Source of the DNA: Cephaloticoccus capnophilus | Lineage (GTDB): Bacteria; Verrucomicrobiota; Verrucomicrobiia; Opitutales; Opitutaceae | Direction of reading: 5' to 3' | DNA: 64,000 nucleotides | Assembly (NCBI RefSeq): GCF_001580045.1 | Contig: NZ_LSZP01000009.1 | Location: 1-64,000 of the forward strand | Shown here: positions 1-49,563 of the stretch, piece by piece | Layout: each line of letters opens with the position of its first letter | Numbering within the stretch: position 1 is the stretch's first letter | Translations under genes and position numbers: made by a program | The notes under the pieces: generated by a model | The model's database searches: none | The model's input: only the letters and a program-made list of their open reading frames with translations | What the model was told of the DNA's origin: nothing

Positions 1-969
1 ATAGATGATTCTGATGTTAATATAAACTCATGTCACTACCTTGGCGGCGATTGTTATTTACATAGTCTGAATATGTATAGCGGTAATCATGTGGGTATAC
101 AAGCCCCCTATAGGCTCACTATTGGTGAGGGTGGGATAGGCGTTTATGCATCGGCACCTGCGGCGTATATTTCAGGATCTGGAGTTCTTACTTCTAGTGA
201 AAGTTTCTTGAATATCTGGCTTTGGGTAACTGGTGGAATGATTGATCCTTTACGGATTAACTCCGTCATTGCTGATAATGGGACAAATAAGGTAGGTCTG
301 CGAATAAGTGGGACTGAGCATAGAAATTGGGTGGCTGCCGTATTGGGTGGAGATAAGAGTAATACCTTTACTGGGCCTGTCGAAGTGTCGGGGCAGTATA
401 ATGTGCTTTCGCTAGCTAAGACGAATGGGGCGATTGCGACTAGGGGAGATATTTTTATTAATAATCATGCGAAGCTGAATACGTGGGGTACTAGACAGAT
501 TGAGCGTAATTCAACCGTGCGATTGCGAGACGCCTTTTTCCAATTTGCCGATCATTCCGATGCAAGTTTTATAAAGGAGGAGTGCTTTCACAAGCTTGTG
601 GCCGAGGGGAAGTCTTTTCTCCAGTTTAACTGGATAGGCCCACTGGGTAAGCGTTTTCTTTATTTGGACGATTTATCAATTGATAGCGGTGCTGAGCTAG
701 TCGTCAGCGGCTGGGTAGAAGGCACTCACTTTTTCCTTGTTCGGAAGACGAGTAGCGGTCTTGAGGATGCTCTGAAGCGGATTGCCTTTGAGGGATATAT
801 CCCCGGGAGAACTCACCTTGAGCACTATAACGAAGATTACTGGATGATTTCGGGAACGCCGGAGCCTGCAACTTACGGGGCAGGCTTAATGTTAGCCGCA
901 CTCGGGCTTGTCTGCTATCGGCGGCGGCAAAAACAGCGCTCGGCGCGGCTGGCGGCGGGAGCGTATTAG
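1..969 (+). CDS. PEP-CTERM sorting-domain protein, 3' part only
   Basis: The reading frame is open from the first base, so the 5' end lies outside the window; an ATG at 73 is probably internal. The visible 322 residues are Gly/Ser/Asn-rich and beta-strand-like, with no enzyme motif seen. The C-terminus has PEP-ATYG, a hydrophobic helix and an RRRQKQR tail, the tripartite signal handled by exosortase in families with this motif. The segment before it (IAFEGY...) resembles that of the large PEP-CTERM protein at 8418-12143. Base composition is clearly more AT-rich than in the housekeeping genes. The last five sense codons and the TAG stop match the repeat element at 951-1140. Likely a secreted or surface protein; exact role unknown. 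Confidence 0.85.
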   Translation: MDDSDVNINSCHYLGGDCYLHSLNMYSGNHVGIQAPYRLTIGEGGIGVYASAPAAYISGSGVLTSSESFLNIWLWVTGGMIDPLRINSVIADNGTNKVGLRISGTEHRNWVAAVLGGDKSNTFTGPVEVSGQYNVLSLAKTNGAIATRGDIFINNHAKLNTWGTRQIERNSTVRLRDAFFQFADHSDASFIKEECFHKLVAEGKSFLQFNWIGPLGKRFLYLDDLSIDSGAELVVSGWVEGTHFFLVRKTSSGLEDALKRIAFEGYIPGRTHLEHYNEDYWMISGTPEPATYGAGLMLAALGLVCYRRRQKQRSARLAAGAY

Positions 970-1140
970 TGATTTTTCCCTCCTCGTCCAAACGGGTTAT
1001 CACTCTACTTTCTGCTCCCTGCCGCGTTGCGACAGGGAGAATACTTTCAAAAATTAGGGAATTGGTTTCGCCGCGAAGCGACGCGGCCAATTCCCTAATT
1101 AAATGGGAGTGGCAGCATGCCACCGCTCCACGCGCAGTGG
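951..1140 (-). repeat. Modular palindromic element, copy A (truncated, inverted)
   Basis: Read on the minus strand this matches the left half of the element at 15758-16052 and 49123-49515. It has an outer end of 39 bp (1102-1140, ending GCGCAGTGG), a small palindrome GTGGCA-gca-TGCCAC (1109-1123), a perfect 14-bp stem AATTAGGGAATTGG at 1052-1065 with its complement at 1087-1100, a stem around CTCCCTGCCGC-gtt-GCGACAGGGAG (1015-1039), and the conserved stretch with ACGGGTTATCACTCTAC. The half carrying the 23-bp hairpin and the second terminal repeat is missing. The left limit lies inside the end of the upstream gene. Confidence 0.8.
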
Positions 1141-1164
1141 GAAAAAGGCGTATCAGCGCGGCTC

Positions 1165-1190
1165 ACGTTTCAAACGCGAACAGGCCCTAC
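1165..1190 (-). repeat. REP-like short palindromic module at the mntR 3' end
   Basis: The core is CGTTT-c-AAACG followed by CGAACAGGCCCTA. On the minus strand it follows the mntR stop codon directly. Related modules lie at 13181-13215, 49538-49563 and 61377-61402. There is no T-tract, so it is not a classical intrinsic terminator; it could act as a transcript-end stem. Confidence 0.6.
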
Positions 1191-15757: not shown

Positions 15758-16052
15758 CCACTACGCGTGGGGCGGCAGCGTGTCGCTGCATCCATTCAAT
15801 TTGGGATTTCTCCTCGCGCTATCGCGCGAAAGCGAAATCCCAAATTTGAAAGTACTCTCCCCTGTCGCGTTGCGACAGGGAGGGGAAAGTAGAGTGATAA
15901 CCCGTTTGGGCGAATTGGGAAAAATCACCAGTAAACTCCCGCTTCCGAGTTTGGGGGCCTTTCTACCGAACGCTTGGCTGCCGTGCGTATGCACGGCAGC
16001 CAAGCGTTCGGTAAATGGGTGCAGCGACACGCTGCCGCCCCACGCGCAGTGG
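15758..16052 (+). repeat. Modular palindromic element, copy B (complete)
   Basis: Bounded by 39-bp inverted repeats (15758-15796 and 16014-16052, two mismatches) beginning CCACTnCGCGTGGGGC. Inside, in order: palindrome GCAGCG-tgt-CGCTGC; stem AATTTGGGATTTC (15798-15810) with its complement at 15834-15846, enclosing TCGCGC-tatc-GCGCGA; stem CCCTGTCGC-gtt-GCGACAGGG (15860-15880); a conserved stretch with GAGTGATAACCCGTTTGGGC; and a perfect 23-bp hairpin (15964-16013). No transposase or credible protein is inside. It looks like a non-autonomous mobile element or a large structured nucleic acid. It starts four bases after the RidA stop. Confidence 0.85.
15964..16013. repeat. Perfect 23-bp hairpin with 4-base loop
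   Basis: Arms 15964-15986 and 15991-16013 are exact reverse complements, starting TACCGAACGC, around gtat. The equivalent in copy C differs at two stem positions, both compensated. It could also end transcription of the RidA operon, but no T-tract follows. Confidence 0.85.
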
Positions 16053-16351
16053 GAAAAAGCGTATCAGCGCGGCTCGGAGAGCGCTAACTGGCGCTTAGTA
16101 TTTTTACCTAACAGATTGTTATTTACTCGGTTATGAAATCGGGATGCGTTTCGGGTGAGCGCTTCTTCAGCGTGCGAGCGATACCCCCGCTAACCCCTAA
16201 CCCGACCCCTACGTATCCTGCGCCTCGGCGGCATCTCGTGTTTATACCGCAGTAAGCGCTGCTTCCCTTTTTTGGATTTTGAGGCCGCTTCGCACAAGTG
16301 GAAGGCTAGCTCCAAGCAACTCAGTAAAATCCCCTAAAACTGACTGTTCTT
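16053..16351. other. Intergenic region upstream of the polyol operon
   Basis: No gene is supported. It begins with a short sequence shared with copy A's flank (AAAGCGTATCAGCGCGGCTC-like), then an AT-rich patch, CCCCTAACCCGACCCCTA-like C-rich sequence, and a short T-run at 16270. It presumably carries the promoter for the operon starting at 16352; no operator was recognised. Confidence 0.4.
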
Positions 16352-22723: not shown

Positions 22724-24070
22724 TTACAGCGTGCGCGCTAGGACTTTTGCGTTGCGGCCGCTTTCTTCGTGTTGGCGGAGGCGGGCCTCGGGCAGGATAG
22801 ACTTGTCCACTTCGCTAAAGCCGAGGTTGTTGGTGAAAAAGCCGTAGCTCTGGGTCGAGAGCGCGAGGATTTTCGAGGCCCCTTGTTTCTTTGCCATGAG
22901 GCAGGCGTACTCGACCAGTTTGCGGCCAATGCCGCGATTTTGGTAAAATGGCAGGACGTAGAGTGCGCCGAGTTCGGCGAGTTTGGGCGCGCCGGCTGTG
23001 TCGGGCGGGTAGAGGATGAGGGTCACGCAGGCGATGATGTTCTCGTCGATTTCGAAGACGTAGAATTGGTCGATCGTCTTATCAATCGCCTGCTGGGTGC
23101 GCTGGACGAGCTCTTCGCGCTTCACCGCGCTGCGCGTGAGGCTGTAGATGAAGCGGACGTCGCGGCGGTTGGCTTTGCGGATTTGTTGGTAGTCGTTGCC
23201 GTAGATGAGGGTGCCTACGCCTTCGCCGGAGAAGATTTCGTTTAACAGGCCATCGAGGAGTCGCCCGTCGACGATGTGCACGCGCGGGGTGCCGTTATCG
23301 ATGGCGTAGACCGCGTGGCGGGCCTTTGAGCGGCACTGCTCGGCGAGTTGATCGGGCGCGCGGTCGAGCTGGGCACGCAGGGCTTCGATGGCGATTTGAG
23401 GTTGCACGGTGCCGCCGATTTCGAGGCCGGGGTGTGGGGTGAGGTAGATGATCTTTGTCGCGTGGAGGGCTTTGGCGAGCTCGGCGGCGAGTAGGTCGGA
23501 GTTGACGCGCAGCGAGCGACCATCGGGGCCGAAGGCGAGCGGCGAGACCACGGGGATGACTTGGCTGTTTATCAGCGAGTGCAGGAAGTCCTTGTCCACG
23601 CGATCGACCTTGGCGGTGAACTGCTGGTCGATGCCGCGAATGATGCCGACAGGGAGCGCGCGCACGGCGTTGGTGCTCGCGCCTTTGAGATTGTTTTGCG
23701 CCAAGCCTTCGAGGATGAGGTGCGAGACGCGTGCGCTGGCGCGGATGGCGAGGTCGAGAGTCGGGGCGTCGGTGATGCCGGTGCCTTCGACGTCGGAGAG
23801 GGGGACGCTGCGCAGTTGGGCGAGTTCGCGCAGCTGCTGGCCGATGCCGTGGGCGATCACGACTTTGATGCCGAGGCTGCGCAGCACGGCGACATCGACG
23901 AGGAGGTTGCCGAAGTTATCGTCGGCGACGATGGAGCCGTCGAAGGCGATGACGAAGATCTGGCCTTGGAAGCGCGGGACGTATTGGAGAATGCCGCGCA
24001 GGTCGGTGGGCTTAATCGTGGCGGCCAGTGCGGCAGCCTTGGCGGTCGCGAGTGCGGGCGTGGCGGACAT
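22724..24070 (-). CDS. argA: N-acetylglutamate synthase (amino-acid N-acetyltransferase)
   Basis: Catalyses acetyl-CoA plus L-glutamate to N-acetylglutamate, the first step of arginine synthesis. The 448-residue length matches the ArgA family. It has an N-terminal amino-acid-kinase-like domain (FQGQIFVIAFDGSIVADD through about residue 290) and a C-terminal GNAT domain with acetyl-CoA loop YQNRGIGRKLVEY and STQSYGFFTNNLGF. The ATG at 24070 is chosen; an in-frame start further out at 24154 adds low-complexity residues. Single gene; no other arg gene in the window. Confidence 0.9.
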   Translation of the reverse strand: MSATPALATAKAAALAATIKPTDLRGILQYVPRFQGQIFVIAFDGSIVADDNFGNLLVDVAVLRSLGIKVVIAHGIGQQLRELAQLRSVPLSDVEGTGITDAPTLDLAIRASARVSHLILEGLAQNNLKGASTNAVRALPVGIIRGIDQQFTAKVDRVDKDFLHSLINSQVIPVVSPLAFGPDGRSLRVNSDLLAAELAKALHATKIIYLTPHPGLEIGGTVQPQIAIEALRAQLDRAPDQLAEQCRSKARHAVYAIDNGTPRVHIVDGRLLDGLLNEIFSGEGVGTLIYGNDYQQIRKANRRDVRFIYSLTRSAVKREELVQRTQQAIDKTIDQFYVFEIDENIIACVTLILYPPDTAGAPKLAELGALYVLPFYQNRGIGRKLVEYACLMAKKQGASKILALSTQSYGFFTNNLGFSEVDKSILPEARLRQHEESGRNAKVLARTL

Positions 24071-24156
24071 GGCGAAGGGCGTCTGTGGGTTGGGGGAGGA
24101 GGCTGCGGAGCTGCGTGAAGGGAAACGGGAGTGGGCGGCTTCGGCAAAATGCAAAG

Positions 24157-24855
24157 TTAGCGCGGCTCAGCTTCGTAGACCTTCAGGCCCCAGAGCATCG
24201 ACTCCTCTGCACCGATGAGTAGCCCCGTGTAGCGGCCGGGCTTGAGCGGCACCTTGGGGGCGATCAGCCACTTCCGGTATTCGACGTGTTCGGCGTCGAA
24301 GTCGTCTTCAGGGGCATCGGGTCCGGCGAGTTCGACGACCAGGAAGATCTGGTTTCCGTGCACGTAGAGTTGCGCGGCCACTGGTTCGGCGCTCGCGTAA
24401 AAGCGGGCTTTAAGGACGAAATCGCCGCCTTCGTGGAGGTCGGCGGGGCCGAGCGAAGTGCTCGTCTCTCTGATTAAGTGCGGCGGCTCAATCAGTGCGG
24501 CGGCCAAATTTTCGGGGAGTCCGCCTTCTGCGGTTCGCGTGATTAGCGCGTAGAGCGTGCGTTTGTTGGCGGGGTTTTCCGCGTAGTCGGGGAAGTCGGG
24601 CTCCTTGTTGAGCGGGCGCGAATCTGTTGCATCGCGGATTTCGAGCGGGATGCGTTGAAAACCGGCTTCGAGGAGTTGGTGGATTTGGGCGCGTGCTTTC
24701 AAGTCGTTGTAGGGTTCAAAGGCGTGGCCGGGTTTGCGGTATTGGAGCGTCACAAAGGTGTAGGCGGCGAGGCAGGGCAGGAGTGCGAGGACGATCCACT
24801 TCATGGGCCAAGGCTCGGGAGCGGCAGGCGGCGTGTTGTTGGGGGGCGTCTTCAT
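24157..24855 (-). CDS. Membrane-anchored hypothetical protein
   Basis: A 232-residue protein with a Pro-rich cytoplasmic start, one membrane helix (WIVLALLPCLAAYTFVTL) and an extracytoplasmic domain of mixed alpha/beta character (VLKARFYASAEPVAAQLYVH, KWLIAPKVPLKPGRYTGLLI). Family not recognised. It lies upstream of argA on the same strand with an 86-base gap and diverges from proS. Confidence 0.6.
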   Translation of the reverse strand: MKTPPNNTPPAAPEPWPMKWIVLALLPCLAAYTFVTLQYRKPGHAFEPYNDLKARAQIHQLLEAGFQRIPLEIRDATDSRPLNKEPDFPDYAENPANKRTLYALITRTAEGGLPENLAAALIEPPHLIRETSTSLGPADLHEGGDFVLKARFYASAEPVAAQLYVHGNQIFLVVELAGPDAPEDDFDAEHVEYRKWLIAPKVPLKPGRYTGLLIGAEESMLWGLKVYEAEPR

Positions 24856-24942
24856 AAAAGCGGCGAGTAACGGGATGCGGTCTTCCGCCGGCAAATACAT
24901 TTGCTTGCGCTAGGGCGGGCCGCTTGCCTGCGCGGCTTCCCC

Positions 24943-26739
24943 ATGAAGTTTTGGTCCCAGTTTTTCATTCCCACTCTCAAGGAAAGCCCGGCGGATGCCG
25001 AAATCGCGTCGCACAAGCTGCTCGTCCGCGCGGGGCTCGTGCGCAAGCTCGGTGCCGGGCTTTACACGTATATGCCGCTCGGACAGCGCGTGATGCGTAA
25101 GCTCACTGAGATTTGCCGCGAGGAGATGGATCGGGCAGGGGCGATCGAGTTGTGGATGCCGCACTTGCATCCCGCAGAGAGTTGGGAGGCTGGGCCGCGC
25201 TGGGCGGCGGGCCGCGAAATCATGTTTCGTGTCGATAGCGCGGGTGAGGGGGCCGCTGCGAAATTGCCGCGTGAGCCGGAACTCGTCCTCGGGCCGACGC
25301 ACGAGGAGATCATCACCCCGCTCGTCAAAAACGAGATTACGAGCTACCGCGATTTGCCGAAAAATTTTTATCAAATCGCCACCAAGTTTCGGAACGAAAT
25401 ACGGCCACGCTATGGCCTGATGCGTGGCCGCGAGTTTGTGATGATGGACGCTTACTCCTTCGACGCGGACGAGGCAGGCGCGGCTCAAAGCTACGAGGCG
25501 ATGAAGCGTGGGTATGAGGCGTTTTTTAAGCGCATCGGGATGCACGCGATTGCGGTCGAGGCCGATACGGGGGTGATGGGCGGGAGCTTTTCGCACGAGT
25601 TCATGGCTCCGGCGGAAATCGGCGACGATGACATCATTTACTGCGAGGCGAGCGGCTACGCGGCCAATCGCGAGAAGGCGACGAGTGCGCTGGTGCCCGC
25701 CGATTTGGCGGACGCTGCGCCAGTAGGCGAAGTCGAGAAGTTCGCGACGCCGGGAGCTACGACGATCGCCGCGCTAGAGGCTGCGCCCTACGGCGTGCCT
25801 GCTTCGGCGCAATTTAAGACGCTCGTCTATGTCGGCGACGGGCAGCCCTTCGTCGTTATTCTGCGCGGCTGCGATGAGTTGGAAGAGGCCAAACTCGGCG
25901 CGCTCGGCTTCACGCTGGTGCGGCCCGCCACGCCGGAGGAGATCGAGCCGATCATGGGCGCGAAACCTGGGAGCCTCGGCGCAGTTAAGGGCCGTATCCA
26001 GAAACCGGATGCGCTGGCGGGGATCTTTGCCGACCACGCCATTCGCTTAATTGGCAACGGCACGACGGGGGCGAATGAAGACGGCTACCACTTGCGCAAT
26101 GTGAATGTCGGGCGCGACCTCGCAGTGACGCGCTTTGGCGACTTCCGCCGCGTGCACGAGGGCGAGCCGTGTCCGCGATCCGGACAGCCGCTCAAGAGCC
26201 GCCGCGGGATTGAGGTCGGCCACATATTCGTCCTCGGGACAAAATACTCGGAACGATTTGGTGCCGTTTACACCGATGCCGAAAAGCAGACACACCCGAT
26301 GGTCATGGGCTCTTACGGCATCGGCATCGGTCGAGTGATGCAGGCGCTCATCGAGCAAGACCACGACGGCGACGGCATTCGCTGGCCTTGGGCAGTCGCG
26401 CCGTTCCAAGTGCTTGTCACCTTGCTTGACCCGAAGGACGAGGCGGCGGCGGCAGTGGCTAAAACGCTGGCCGAGGCCGCCGAGCGTGCCGGAGCCGATG
26501 TGCTCGTAGACGACCGCGACGAGCGACCAGGCGTGAAGTTTAAAGATGCGGACTTAATTGGGATTCCGCTGCGGCTGACGGTTGGCGGGCGCGGCTTGAA
26601 GGAAGGCGTTGTGGAGTTGAAGTGGCGCAGCGCCGTCGCGAATCAGGGCTCGACCGAAGCGCGCAAAATCCCGCTTGCTGAGGCCGAAGCGGTAATCGCT
26701 GCCGAGGTTTCGGCGGCAGCCGCAGTGGCAGCAGACTGA
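24943..26739 (+). CDS. proS: Prolyl-tRNA synthetase, bacterial type with editing domain
   Basis: Charges tRNA-Pro. A 598-residue class II synthetase: motif 1 around ICREEMDRAGAIELWMP, motif 2 with FRNEIRPRYGLMRGREFVMMDAYSF, an inserted YbaK-like editing domain (about 235-400, with DGYHLRNVNVGRDL), motif 3 in YGIGIGRVMQALIEQ, and a C-terminal anticodon-binding domain (PFQVLVTLLDP...). The ATG at 24943 gives the normal N-terminus (KFWSQFFIPTLKE). Confidence 0.95.
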   Translation: MKFWSQFFIPTLKESPADAEIASHKLLVRAGLVRKLGAGLYTYMPLGQRVMRKLTEICREEMDRAGAIELWMPHLHPAESWEAGPRWAAGREIMFRVDSAGEGAAAKLPREPELVLGPTHEEIITPLVKNEITSYRDLPKNFYQIATKFRNEIRPRYGLMRGREFVMMDAYSFDADEAGAAQSYEAMKRGYEAFFKRIGMHAIAVEADTGVMGGSFSHEFMAPAEIGDDDIIYCEASGYAANREKATSALVPADLADAAPVGEVEKFATPGATTIAALEAAPYGVPASAQFKTLVYVGDGQPFVVILRGCDELEEAKLGALGFTLVRPATPEEIEPIMGAKPGSLGAVKGRIQKPDALAGIFADHAIRLIGNGTTGANEDGYHLRNVNVGRDLAVTRFGDFRRVHEGEPCPRSGQPLKSRRGIEVGHIFVLGTKYSERFGAVYTDAEKQTHPMVMGSYGIGIGRVMQALIEQDHDGDGIRWPWAVAPFQVLVTLLDPKDEAAAAVAKTLAEAAERAGADVLVDDRDERPGVKFKDADLIGIPLRLTVGGRGLKEGVVELKWRSAVANQGSTEARKIPLAEAEAVIAAEVSAAAAVAAD

Positions 26740-26755
26740 AGCCAAGTTGTATGTG

Positions 26756-27082
26756 ATGACTGTCATCGTGGAGACTTCCCCCGTGACTCATCCCGAGAGC
26801 GATACGCTCACGGAGAGGGCGCCTGCACGCCGCTGGCTGGTCGTCGTCCTAAACGACCCAGTCAACCTCATGTCCTATGTCGTGATGGTGTTTCGCAAGG
26901 TGTTCGGCTTCGACGAAACGGCCGCGCGTAAACACATGCTCGAAGTCCACGAACAGGGCCGCTCGGTGCTGTGGAGCGGCCCGCGCGAGCAGGCGGAGGC
27001 TTACGCTTACACGCTGCAACAATGGCAACTCACGGCAGTGCTCGAGAGCGAGGAGGGCGACGATGGCTATGCGAGTGATTGA
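26756..27082 (+). CDS. clpS: ATP-dependent Clp protease adaptor ClpS
   Basis: Delivers N-degron substrates to ClpAP. A 108-residue protein with a disordered N-terminus and the ClpS core: VVVLNDPVNLMSYVVMVFRK, HMLEVHEQGRSVLWSGPREQ and AEAYAYTLQQWQL. The Asn-Asp pair and Met40-region residues lining the N-degron pocket are in place. No clpA in the window. It overlaps the next gene by 20 bases, so the two are probably co-translated. Confidence 0.9.
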   Translation: MTVIVETSPVTHPESDTLTERAPARRWLVVVLNDPVNLMSYVVMVFRKVFGFDETAARKHMLEVHEQGRSVLWSGPREQAEAYAYTLQQWQLTAVLESEEGDDGYASD

Positions 27083-27647: not shown

Positions 27648-27855
27648 GGGCGCCTCCTAGCCTCCGAGATCGACACCCTGTGGTGTGCGAGGTGCTTTCA
27701 TTAAACAGCTCTTTGCCTTAAGAACCAACGGGAGCCAAGACCGCCGCGGAAGCTGCTAGGCCGTAAACCGGAAAGCAAACGCTGCGGGGGAGGTGCCCAC
27801 CTAAACTTAAAAGGACGAGAGCCTTTGGGCACACGGCACCGGCGGGGTGTCACTT
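27648..27855 (+). ncRNA. Structured RNA candidate, possibly 6S RNA
   Basis: Between the clpS operon and the next gene lie about 370 bases with no credible ORF but much pairing potential. A rod can form from GACACCC (27672-27678) with GGGTGTC (27845-27851), GGTGC (27691-27695) with GCACC (27836-27840) and GCTCT (27708-27712) with AGAGC (27818-27822). The stretch CCCTGTGGTGTGCG near the 5' side resembles the 5' part of 6S RNAs, and the length is close to 180-200 nt. An alternative 10-bp helix (27648-27657 with 27789-27798) would compete. Assignment as 6S is tentative; SRP RNA, tmRNA and RNase P RNA signatures were not seen. Confidence 0.45.
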
Positions 27856-30578: not shown

Positions 30579-31340
30579 TCACAGGCTCTCGACGCTTCGG
30601 GCGAAGGCGGCGAGGTCGGGCGCTTTGAAGAAGGCGGTGCCGGCCACAAAGGTGTCGGCCCCAGCGGCGCGGCAGGCGCTAGCCTCGCTCAGCCCAATCC
30701 CTCCATCGACTTCGAGCCGCCACTGCCAGCCGTTTTCGCGTCGCCAGCCGTCGAGGGTTTTTAGCTTTTCGAGCATCGCGGGGCGAAAGGATTGGCCGCC
30801 AAACCCGGGTTGCACAGTCATCACGAGGACGAGGTCAACGTCGGCCAGCAGGTGGCGGACAGCTTCGGCGGGCGTGTCGGGGTTGAGGACGATGCCACAT
30901 TGGCAGCCGAGGGAGCGGATTTCGGCCAGTGCGCTGGCGTGGTCGTAGTCGGGCTCGATGTGAATGGAAATCAGATCGGCTCCGGCTGCGGCGAAGGCTT
31001 TTAGGTAACGCTGCGGCTCGGAGAGCATCAGGTGCGTGTCGAAGAAAGTCTTCGACTCATTCACTTGCAGCTCGCTCGTTGGCGAGGTGTGGGAGCGCGC
31101 GTTTTCTTTTTCGGCGCGGCGGAGCGCGGCGAGAGTTTCGGGGCCGAAGCTCAAGTTGGGGACGAAGTGGCCGTCCATGATGTCGAGGTGCAGCCAGTGT
31201 AGGCCGACTGCGGCGACTTGAGCCGCACTTGCGGCGAGCCCGGCGTGGTCGCCCGCGAGGAGCGAGGGCGCGAGAATTGAGGGCAGTGGGGGCGGTTTCG
31301 CCCCGGTGCCGTGAGGAGAAAGTAGAGCGGGCATGTCCAT
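30579..31340 (-). CDS. rpe: Ribulose-phosphate 3-epimerase
   Basis: Interconverts ribulose-5-phosphate and xylulose-5-phosphate in the pentose phosphate pathway. TIM-barrel motifs: LPSILAPSLLAGD, LHLDIMDGHFVPNLSFGP (metal His and catalytic Asp), DTHLMLSEP, VMTVQPGFGGQSF and EVDGGIG. About 20 residues (ARSHTSPTSELQVNESK region) are inserted before DTHLM relative to usual Rpe. Start uncertain: GTG at 31394 or TTG at 31397 overlap the lptE stop; the ATG at 31340 still leaves a short extension before the barrel. Last gene of the minus-strand rpmF-to-rpe run. Confidence 0.92.
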   Translation of the reverse strand: MDMPALLSPHGTGAKPPPLPSILAPSLLAGDHAGLAASAAQVAAVGLHWLHLDIMDGHFVPNLSFGPETLAALRRAEKENARSHTSPTSELQVNESKTFFDTHLMLSEPQRYLKAFAAAGADLISIHIEPDYDHASALAEIRSLGCQCGIVLNPDTPAEAVRHLLADVDLVLVMTVQPGFGGQSFRPAMLEKLKTLDGWRRENGWQWRLEVDGGIGLSEASACRAAGADTFVAGTAFFKAPDLAAFARSVESL

Positions 31341-31390
31341 CGTGGCGTTCGCGGGTTTTGCGAGTGCAGCCGTGGACGGTTTCCGCTTCG

Positions 31391-31942
31391 TCACCAAGTG
31401 TCGAGAACAGCGTGGATGGCTTTGTCGGCGAGGTCTTGGGCAAGGAGCGGCAGGATCTGATACTCGGCTTGCTGCTGACCGCCGTCGGCAAAGATATCTC
31501 GGCGAATCTCAATCGGGCGTGCGCTGAAATAGGGCTTGCCCGTGCCGGGCTCTGCGCCTTCGCGCAGCGTCATTTCGGCGATCAGGACGACGGTGAATTT
31601 TCGCGCGAGGCCGGTATCGTCCGGGTCGGCAGTGGCGGTGTCGCGGCGGTAGTTGCGAATGGTGATCTCCAGCACTGCACCAGCGGCGGTGGGCGTGGCC
31701 GCGAGCGTGACGCGGCCATCGCGTGAGAAGCGTTCTCGCACTGCGCCGGTCAGGACGGCATCGGCTTGCGGGATGAGGGCGCGCATTTTTACAGGCGCGA
31801 CGTAGAGCGTGGAGAAGGCGAGTGGGGCGCTTTGCGGAGTCCCGAGTTGGTAGCCGCAGCCAGTGAGAAAGAGCCCGCCGAATGCAAAAACCGCGCTTAA
31901 TAGAGTGAGCGGAAAAAGGCGGGACGAAGAGGAGCGCGGCAT
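31391..31942 (-). CDS. lptE: LPS-assembly lipoprotein LptE-like
   Basis: A 183-residue lipoprotein with lipobox LTGC (Cys29) followed by GYQLG, the hallmark of LptE/RlpB. Then come LYVAPVKMRALIPQ, VLEITIRNYRRDT and a late helix. LptE plugs the LptD outer-membrane translocon that inserts lipopolysaccharide. It sits between bamD-like and rpe genes on the same strand. lptD is not in the window. Confidence 0.82.
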   Translation of the reverse strand: MPRSSSSRLFPLTLLSAVFAFGGLFLTGCGYQLGTPQSAPLAFSTLYVAPVKMRALIPQADAVLTGAVRERFSRDGRVTLAATPTAAGAVLEITIRNYRRDTATADPDDTGLARKFTVVLIAEMTLREGAEPGTGKPYFSARPIEIRRDIFADGGQQQAEYQILPLLAQDLADKAIHAVLDTW

Positions 31943-32016
31943 GGGTTTAGGAAAACGAGGGATGGGGAGCGGCGCGTGTGACTTGTGACGCGGCGGGCGC
32001 GTGAGGGCGCGTTTTT

Positions 32017-33093
32017 TTAGAAAAACAGGAAGCGTTTTTTCCGTTTCGCCCGAGCGGGTGCGGCGTCGTCAGCGGGTTGGTGTTTGGCGGCGGCGGCTTC
32101 GACTTTGACCAGTTGGGCGCGGGCGCGCTCGGCGATTTCGGAGTCGGGGTAAGTCGTAATGGCTTCGTTATAGAATACGCGGGCAGCGGTGTAGTTGTCG
32201 CGTTTCTTGAAATAGAAATCGCCCATCTTGACTTTGCTTTCGGCAAGGACGGTGCGCATTTCGTCCAAGCCTTCTTCGGCGCGGGCTACGCCCGGGTCGC
32301 CGGGGAAGAGGATTAGGAAGTCCTCAAAGTAGGTGGCGGCTTCTTGAGTAGAGGCTTGGTCGTACTCGGGGCCGTCGACGAGGCTGGCGTGGGCTTCGGC
32401 GAGCCGGAGGTAGGCATCGGGGCCGAGCGGGCTGTCGGGATAATTGTTAATCATCCGGTCGTAGGCGTCGATGGCCTCTAGCTCGTTACCGAGGTGTTGG
32501 TGGCCGCGACCGATGGCCATCATGGAGAGCGGCGCGTAGTCGCTGTAGGGGGCTTCCCAAACGACAACTTCAAATTGTTGGACGCCTTTGGTGCGGTCTT
32601 TGAAGCCGGGGATGAGGCCCCACCAGCGGTTGCGCGCGCCTTCAAGCATCGAGCTGGCGATCTGGTATTGGCGACCGACGATTTCGTTAAAGCGGTCGGT
32701 GTTGGGGTAGCGGGCGATGAGCTGCGAGTAGGCGTCGAAGGCCTTGTTGTATTGGTGCCGCTTGAGGTAAAGGTCGGCACTGCGGTAGAGGGCTTCGGGG
32801 GTGTAAATGGAGGTCGGGTAGCGTTTGACGACTCTGCGGTAGCGTTTGACGGCGGCACCGTTGTTGCCGCGTTCCTCGGCGGCGCGGGCGCGGTTCATGA
32901 GCGCGAGTGCGCTTTTGCGGTCGTCGAGTGATGAGAGGCCCACGGGCGTACCGCTCTCACTGCTCCAGCCGCTAGCAGGATCCCAAGTTACGTCGACAGC
33001 GCGGGCGGCGGGCGCGAGGAGCGAGAGAGCGATCAGGGCGGCGGTGGAGAGCAGGCCACGGAGTGCGACGGCGCGATTTTTTAGGAAGGCCAT
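32017..33093 (-). CDS. bamD: Outer-membrane assembly TPR protein (BamD-like)
   Basis: A 358-residue protein with a signal peptide (LLSTAALIALSLLAPAARA) and five or so TPR-like repeats (GNNGAAVKRYRRVVKRYPTS; YNKAFDAYSQLIARYPNT; YFEDFLILFPGDPGVARAEE). The C-terminus is basic (RAKRKKRFLFF). BamD is normally a lipoprotein, but no Cys follows this signal peptide, so it would be released by signal peptidase I, unusual for the family. The neighbouring lptE supports an envelope-assembly role. A different periplasmic TPR protein is possible. Confidence 0.72.
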   Translation of the reverse strand: MAFLKNRAVALRGLLSTAALIALSLLAPAARAVDVTWDPASGWSSESGTPVGLSSLDDRKSALALMNRARAAEERGNNGAAVKRYRRVVKRYPTSIYTPEALYRSADLYLKRHQYNKAFDAYSQLIARYPNTDRFNEIVGRQYQIASSMLEGARNRWWGLIPGFKDRTKGVQQFEVVVWEAPYSDYAPLSMMAIGRGHQHLGNELEAIDAYDRMINNYPDSPLGPDAYLRLAEAHASLVDGPEYDQASTQEAATYFEDFLILFPGDPGVARAEEGLDEMRTVLAESKVKMGDFYFKKRDNYTAARVFYNEAITTYPDSEIAERARAQLVKVEAAAAKHQPADDAAPARAKRKKRFLFF

Positions 33094-33218
33094 GATTGGG
33101 AAAACAGACGTAGAGGGAAAAGTGGGAAGGTGGGAGGCCGATCGTGCACAGGGAGCGGAGCGGCGGACTCGGGATTCGGGCGCACTAGGGACTTTGCCGA
33201 AGGGCGCCGGAAACAGGA

Positions 33219-49058: not shown

Positions 49059-49400
49059 GTGACTGCGGTGCCCGACCGCCTCGGCGTCTGTTCCTGTCTC
49101 GCGCGGCCACGCTAATACTTTCCCACTGCGCGTGGGGCGGCGGTCAGTGACCGCTTCCATTCAATTTGGGATTTCGCATCGCGCTATCGCGCGAAAGCGA
49201 AATCCCAAATTTGAAAGCACTCCCCCTGTCGCGTTGCGACAGGGAGGGGAGTCAAAAGGAAAGTAGAGTGATAACCCGTTTGGGCGAGGTGGGGAAAATC
49301 ACTAATAAACACCCGCCGCCAAGTTTGGGCTCCTTTCTACCGAAGGCTTGGTTGCCGTGCGCATGCACGGCAACCAAGCCTTCGGTAAATGGGTGCAGCG

Positions 49401-49499
49401 ATGGACGGCGGGCCGCCAACACTTGACGACGGCTCGGCGACTAAAGTCGTCCTGTGCACGCCGTCAGGCCCGCCGCCAAATAAAACAGCCTGCGGCTGC
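49401..49499 (+). repeat. Nested GGCGGGCC module inserted in copy C
   Basis: Interrupts the right terminal repeat of copy C. It has outer arms GGCGGGCC (49407-49414) and GGCCCGCC (49467-49474), an inner GACGAC/GTCGTC pair (49425-49430 and 49446-49451), and the terminator hairpin at its right side. Diverged fragments lie at 20082-20135, and the terminator part recurs at 12213-12234. Confidence 0.65.
49477..49498 (-). terminator. Intrinsic terminator of the sigma-factor gene, carried by repeat DNA
   Basis: On the minus strand CAGCC-gca-GGCTG is followed by TTTTATTT, the same hairpin as at 12213-12234. It lies about 65 bases beyond the stop codon at 49561. Confidence 0.6.
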
Positions 49500-49537
49500 G
49501 CCCCACGCGTAGTGGAAAATCTGCCTCCGGCGCGGCT

Positions 49538-49563
49538 CGCGTTGCAAACGGGAGCAGATCCTA
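49538..49563 (-). repeat. REP-like module overlapping the sigma-factor stop codon
   Basis: On the minus strand it reads TAGGATCTGCTCCCG, then TTTGCAACGCGAGCCGCG, starting with the stop codon itself. Related to 1165-1190, 13181-13215 and 61377-61402. Confidence 0.6.

Follow-up and report, generated by a model that had tools for sequence, protein, structure and literature searches.

A dispersed modular element of two sister Opitutaceae species, with stem covariation probably shaped by copying between palindrome arms

Three copies of one family of intergenic elements, called here A, B and C, lie in the window, that is the whole 64,000-nucleotide stretch of the Cephaloticoccus capnophilus genome that was analyzed. 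We propose that this element is a dispersed chain of non-coding modules and that the covariation of its stems would be made mainly by replication, through the copying of one palindrome arm from the other, a reading drawn from sequence comparison to which we assign a probability of about 0.68. Paired changes usually count as the strongest sign that an RNA stem is functional; if arms are matched by DNA replication, such changes would not, here, be proof by themselves of a working RNA. The preliminary description of this DNA had offered two causes, preservation of structure under sequence drift or correction of the arms against each other, and had chosen neither: our results favor the second, a functional RNA being neither shown nor needed.

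Copies of the element in the window

The features of the three copies are as follows.

49123 to 49515, forward strand: copy C, both ends present, of a family found genome-wide
49123 to 49135, forward strand: left end motif of copy C, CCACTGCGCGTGG (end-motif search)
49140 to 49154, forward strand: left small palindrome of copy C, GCGGTCAGTGACCGC, the commonest allele beside left halves
49163 to 49211, forward strand: left hairpin of copy C, AATTTGGGATTTC...GAAATCCCAAATT (self-match; allele counts)
49224 to 49244, forward strand: central palindrome of copy C, CCCTGTCGCGTTGCGACAGGG, apparent junction for half-element swaps
49260 to 49283, forward strand: conserved core of copy C, AAAGTAGAGTGATAACCCGTTTGG (core search, at most 3 mismatches)
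49338 to 49387, forward strand: right hairpin of copy C, 50 nt, with 23-bp arms and a 4-nt loop (sequence)
49402 to 49490, forward strand: extra hairpin cassette of copy C, GGCGGGCC...GGCCCGCC...AAATAAAACAGCC, boundaries approximate
49503 to 49515, reverse strand: right end motif of copy C (end-motif search)
15758 to 16052, forward strand: copy B, a canonical element of 295 bp with ends at 15758 to 15770 and 16040 to 16052
15964 to 16013, forward strand: right hairpin of copy B (self-match)
about 946 to 1140, reverse strand: copy A, which has the left half alone, with its end motif at 1128 to 1140 and an approximate inner boundary

The right hairpin reads TACCGAACGCTTGGCTGCCGTGC-GTAT-GCACGGCAGCCAAGCGTTCGGTA in copy B and TACCGAAGGCTTGGTTGCCGTGC-GCAT-GCACGGCAACCAAGCCTTCGGTA in copy C, with two arm differences, both of them compensated, just as the preliminary description had claimed for this 23-bp stem, and one loop difference. 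Its further statements, on the small palindromes (GCAGCGTGTCGCTGC in B, GCGGTCAGTGACCGC in C and GTGGCATGCTGCCAC in A) and on the paired difference in the left stem (AATTTGGGATTTC in B and C, AATTAGGGAATTGG in A), were likewise borne out. Copy A consists of the end motif, the GTGGCATGCTGCCAC palindrome, the AATTAGGG hairpin, the central palindrome and the core; it has no right half, so that there is no 23-bp right hairpin to compare. The folding of copy B goes far beyond that of shuffled sequences (z of -19.1 as DNA and -17.9 as RNA). In copy C the right small palindrome is interrupted by the extra cassette, a module that occurs in a shorter form in many other copies (L016, L017, L025, L105 and others); the longer form in copy C seems to owe its extra length to a second hairpin nested in the loop.

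Organization and copy number of the family

From its outer left end to the core, the canonical element carries the end motif, a small palindrome, the left hairpin, the central palindrome and the core, followed by the right hairpin, a small palindrome and the inverted end motif, for a total of about 295 bp. A search of the genome of the window (G000, 2.09 Mb in 66 contigs) that allowed up to 3 mismatches located the core no fewer than 134 times, and its control not once. The end motif CCACTRCGCGTGG has about 295 matches there and its control pattern 2; inverted pairs of the motif are spaced by about 215 to 400 bp. Many contigs start or end within the element (for example at C2:1, C8:115, C12:122, C21:12, C30:41, C46:43 and C47:6), which thus breaks the assembly, and the true number of copies is no smaller than the one counted here. 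We saw no conserved open frame in the element, which is bounded by terminal inverted repeats and stays below about 600 bp.

The modules come as alleles. The right hairpins of G000 fall into three families (ACCGAA, ACAGAG and AGATTTTGG), its left hairpins into the types AATTTGGGATTTC, AATTTGGGAATTGG and AAATCxCG, and 177 ends carry four main small-palindrome alleles, all of these being reused in many combinations. An M-type left half is joined to an inverted left half at the central palindrome in L168, L170 and L173; L052 and these three loci, and likewise L037 and L108, look like pairs of same-side halves, left with left or right with right, fused mid-element. In the chimeric right hairpins of L016 and L101 each arm comes from a different family. 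Other repeated modules (GAAAAAGCGTATCAGCGCGGC, GGCCTGTTCCCGTTTCAAACG, GGTCTGTGACCTCTGACATTTAC and CTCTCTGAGCTTCCACT) adjoin the ends of many copies, for example at window positions 1141 to 1175, 16053 to 16075 and 49516 to 49545, so that intergenic DNA is here a mosaic of several repeat families.

Distribution and comparison with the sister species

The TrpE protein of G000 shares no more than 81% identity with its counterparts in named Opitutaceae assemblies. A longer form of the end motif is shared with one sister species only (G006), where it occurs at 217 places with at most 1 mismatch; it is absent from seven other genomes of the genus and was found in no further genome among 252 of the family. 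Searching the named genomes for the exact core gave no match, and 19 single matches of the end motif in viral contigs were taken as chance. The G006 element has the same layout, with a right hairpin at the same place that is unrelated in sequence (CTGTGCGGTTTG...): the position and arm length of this hairpin are kept between the two species, while its sequence is fully replaced. Few insertion sites are common to both species among the loci compared, which suggests turnover of the element since the species parted. Vertical inheritance of insertion sites was rejected, as only L007/L181 has orthologous genes on both flanks, with the element present in both species in opposite orientation; most short matches in this comparison of flanks are reading frames through the element itself.

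Extent of the covariation

The three copies of the window are too few for an analysis of covariation, and we used about 110 copies of G000 and about 100 loci of G006. Thirty-one distinct right hairpins of G006, chosen as alignable without gaps and with at most 4 mismatches, show 98.1% of cells paired, a share inflated by that selection, which does not inflate the double changes. These double changes occur at 16 of the 22 pairs and in 105 cells, against a shuffled mean of 25.5; the covariation score is 0.478, and falls to 0.159 (sd 0.013) when partners are shuffled and to no more than 0.10 when they are slid. The observed arms hold 0.65 mismatches per 20 bp and those re-paired across copies 6.91, none of 2000 shuffles falling below 5.70.

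Changes were also counted between nearest neighbors, in a tree that stands in only roughly for ancestors, with one assembly per species and with blurring by recombination between copies. Double changes from one Watson-Crick pair to another number 108 in G006, against 23 one-sided changes, and transversions, which have no G-U intermediate, account for 60 of the 108. Family Ra of G000 shows 19 double and 15 one-sided changes; 12 of the former lie on a single edge between distant sequences, and without that edge the counts become 7 and about 14. Family Rb has 5 double against 14 one-sided changes, and most left hairpins of G000 retain an unpaired internal loop. Covariation is thus overwhelming across species and within G006, and mixed within G000. 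The view that structure is kept while sequence drifts accordingly holds most clearly in G006; in G000 the picture is mixed, one-sided changes equaling or exceeding compensated ones. The preliminary description had named, as evidence against its claim, uncompensated changes that are no rarer than compensated ones; the younger allele families of G000 show this, and G006 clearly does not.

Probable footprints of arm copying

Template switching between the arms of inverted repeats has a published footprint that consists of arm homogenization and spacer inversion (PMC8604942, PMC8794818). Several comparisons between copies fit this description, each of them being circumstantial. In G006, L161 and L204 have identical arms and inverted loops (GGAAC/GTTCC), as do L219 and L322 (GAAAC/GTTTC). 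Both orientations were seen for 4 loop types, compared with 1.17 under the null (P 0.015), and exact inversions make up 2 of 14 comparisons with the same arm and a different loop, so the excess of inversions is modest in numbers. Inverted loop pairs also occur in G000 (GAAT/ATTC, GCAA/TTGC and TTAT/ATAA), and in L049 of that genome the whole right hairpin is inverted, mismatches included.

Internal loops point in the same direction. About 13 copies of G006 have an unequal internal loop with TTC opposite AG, which in L180 and L346 is TTC opposite GAA. The 4x5 internal loop of the left hairpin in G000 has become GCTTT opposite AAAGC in L013 and L085, where the left hairpin is fully paired, matches the right arm and is one base longer. 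Homogenization of several bases of an arm at once, length differences included, is thus a pattern that emerges from comparing copies. Old mismatches are nonetheless retained by many hairpins, namely the left hairpins of both species and the Rc family, so that correction is not frequent everywhere.

Origin of the covariation

Taken together, loop inversions, equalized internal loops, the many paired transversions and the lack of a consistent strand for G-T mismatches lead us to favor arm copying. The element, of about 295 bp, would have multiplied in two sister species of Opitutaceae to 100 or more copies; within a palindrome, the nascent strand may fold back or switch template, one arm being then copied from the other and the loop sometimes inverted. 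An imperfect hairpin could be made perfect in one such event, and the arm sequence would drift while pairing persists. Discrete alleles may be added when modules are swapped at palindromes or when copies exchange sequence. If the structure has a role, we tentatively suggest that it most likely helps the element to spread or to be tolerated between genes, instead of serving a host RNA.

If selection acted instead on a folded RNA, transcribed from the element and relevant to the host, compensatory mutations would have been fixed singly, first in one arm and then in the other, often with a G-U intermediate. The strength of the covariation in G006 and the extreme folding of copy B are what such selection would leave, and the preference for convergent gene ends described below, which other intergenic palindromes share, also fits it. 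The mismatches bear on this point on both sides. Among one-sided changes of the right hairpin, read on the core strand, G-T outnumbers A-C by 29 to 14 (P 0.03 if events are independent), a lean that counts against arm copying in that it is also expected from mild selection on RNA or on a single strand. However, the old mismatches of the G006 left hairpin, on the same strand, are 34 A-C against 4 G-T, those of Rc are G-T, and no strand is consistently favored for G-T tolerance. Selection on RNA also fits poorly with the internal loops left unpaired in most left hairpins, with the majority of transversions among the G006 double changes, with the full replacement of the right-hairpin sequence between the sister species and with the lack of an Rfam match for the element. 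We consider this explanation unlikely.

Less probable again, in our view, is that selection acted on a single-stranded or cruciform DNA structure serving the mobility of the element, as proposed for REPINs, with compensation by ordinary mutation. It would explain why the position and arm length of the right hairpin, and not its sequence, are kept between species; alone, it leaves loop inversions and equalized internal loops unexplained, and no transposase partner was found. Such selection can operate together with arm copying.

As a more speculative and rather improbable variant, arm matching might be part of the element's own replication, a snapped-back arm serving as the template for the other, so that new copies would be perfect and their loops randomly oriented. 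If true, this would explain why diverse yet mostly perfect right hairpins stand beside left hairpins that keep their mismatches in G006. Finally, the spread by recombination of a few ancestral perfect hairpins as ready-made alleles, with no correction of arms, agrees with the discrete right-hairpin alleles and four end palindromes of G000, reused in many combinations, and with the chimeric arms of L016 and L101, but is very improbable given that the right hairpins of G006 come in at least 31 distinct forms, most of them perfect, with one or several paired changes between them.

Mobility and genomic setting

Among 120 + 45 elements, no excess of matching flanks was detected for target-site duplications of 2 to 10 nucleotides at offsets from -4 to 4. 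Joining the flanks revealed no clean empty site, the matches that span the junction resembling shared end modules or self-matches. A RAYT or Y1 transposase as mobilizer was not supported: G000 has a single Y1_Tnp, and G006, in which the element is also present, has none. A single IS200/IS605-like unit, with a Y1 transposase beside a TnpB-like frame, was recognized by inspection at L172 (contig C59 of G000, 24000 to 26800), and its ends are unlike those of the element. We searched for an autonomous element with the same ends and found no candidate among the matches listed (100 end places per genome). The 2.4-kb stretch between two ends at L229 of G006 holds ABC-transporter-like genes and no transposase. 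At L167 (contig C20 of G000, 31300 to 33200), a frame resembling a PEP-CTERM surface protein is bounded by two opposed end motifs spaced by 1.47 kb and sits between half-elements of different type.

Background gaps of the window lie between convergent genes in 7 of 50 cases, and element sites in 20 of 42 (P 0.0005, with a simple gene caller). The Rfam scan of the window gave no match for the element; its only hit, elsewhere, was a 6S (SsrS) RNA at 27672 to 27852 on the forward strand, with 50.6 bits where the gathering score is 46.4.

Comparison with known systems

We read the element as a new, transposase-less, REPIN- or MITE-like modular element, predicted from its sequence. With REPINs and REP-BIMEs it shares an intergenic location, high copy number, inverted pairs of palindromic ends, mosaics of modules and compensatory changes in hairpins, the latter reported as common in the arms of REPIN hairpins (Bertels and Rainey 2011, PMC3116915). 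A REPIN is a doublet of REP sequences, in which GI 16-mers start 71 bp apart (PMC3116915), whereas the element measures about 295 bp and contains several hairpins and a core. As for the GTAG/CGTC tags of REPINs, GTAG lies within the end-motif variant GCGTAGTGG and within the core, and in neither does it stand as an evident 5' tag. Bacterial MITEs such as RUP, NEMIS, ERIC and BOX are similarly short and non-coding, with inverted terminal motifs, a stable fold and a position beside genes; unlike in these, the small palindromes within the ends of the element vary by allele, and no transposase with its ends was found among the end places listed. The element thus lacks one defining feature of each class: the RAYT partner of REPINs, the sole Y1 transposase of G000 being missing from the sister species that also carries the element, and the target-site duplication of MITEs, in the 120 + 45 elements compared. 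The mobile-looking hairpin families of intergenic DNA called RHE in sponge mitochondria (PMC2800124) are also similar in general outline, and belong to organelle genomes.

The closest parallel for the covariation itself is quasipalindrome correction by template switching, with its arm homogenization, loop inversion and paired changes of several bases (PMC8604942, PMC8794818). That process has been described at single loci, in reporters and in rRNA genes, whereas the pattern described here extends over about 100 dispersed copies per genome. The element family appears undescribed in the literature searched, and the proposed mechanism of covariation is one already known. The two sister species, each with about 100 parallel hairpins, in which strong covariation is found together with loop inversions and arm copying, offer a ready test bed for telling covariation made by mutation from covariation made by selection, and call for caution in covariation screens run on palindromic repeats.
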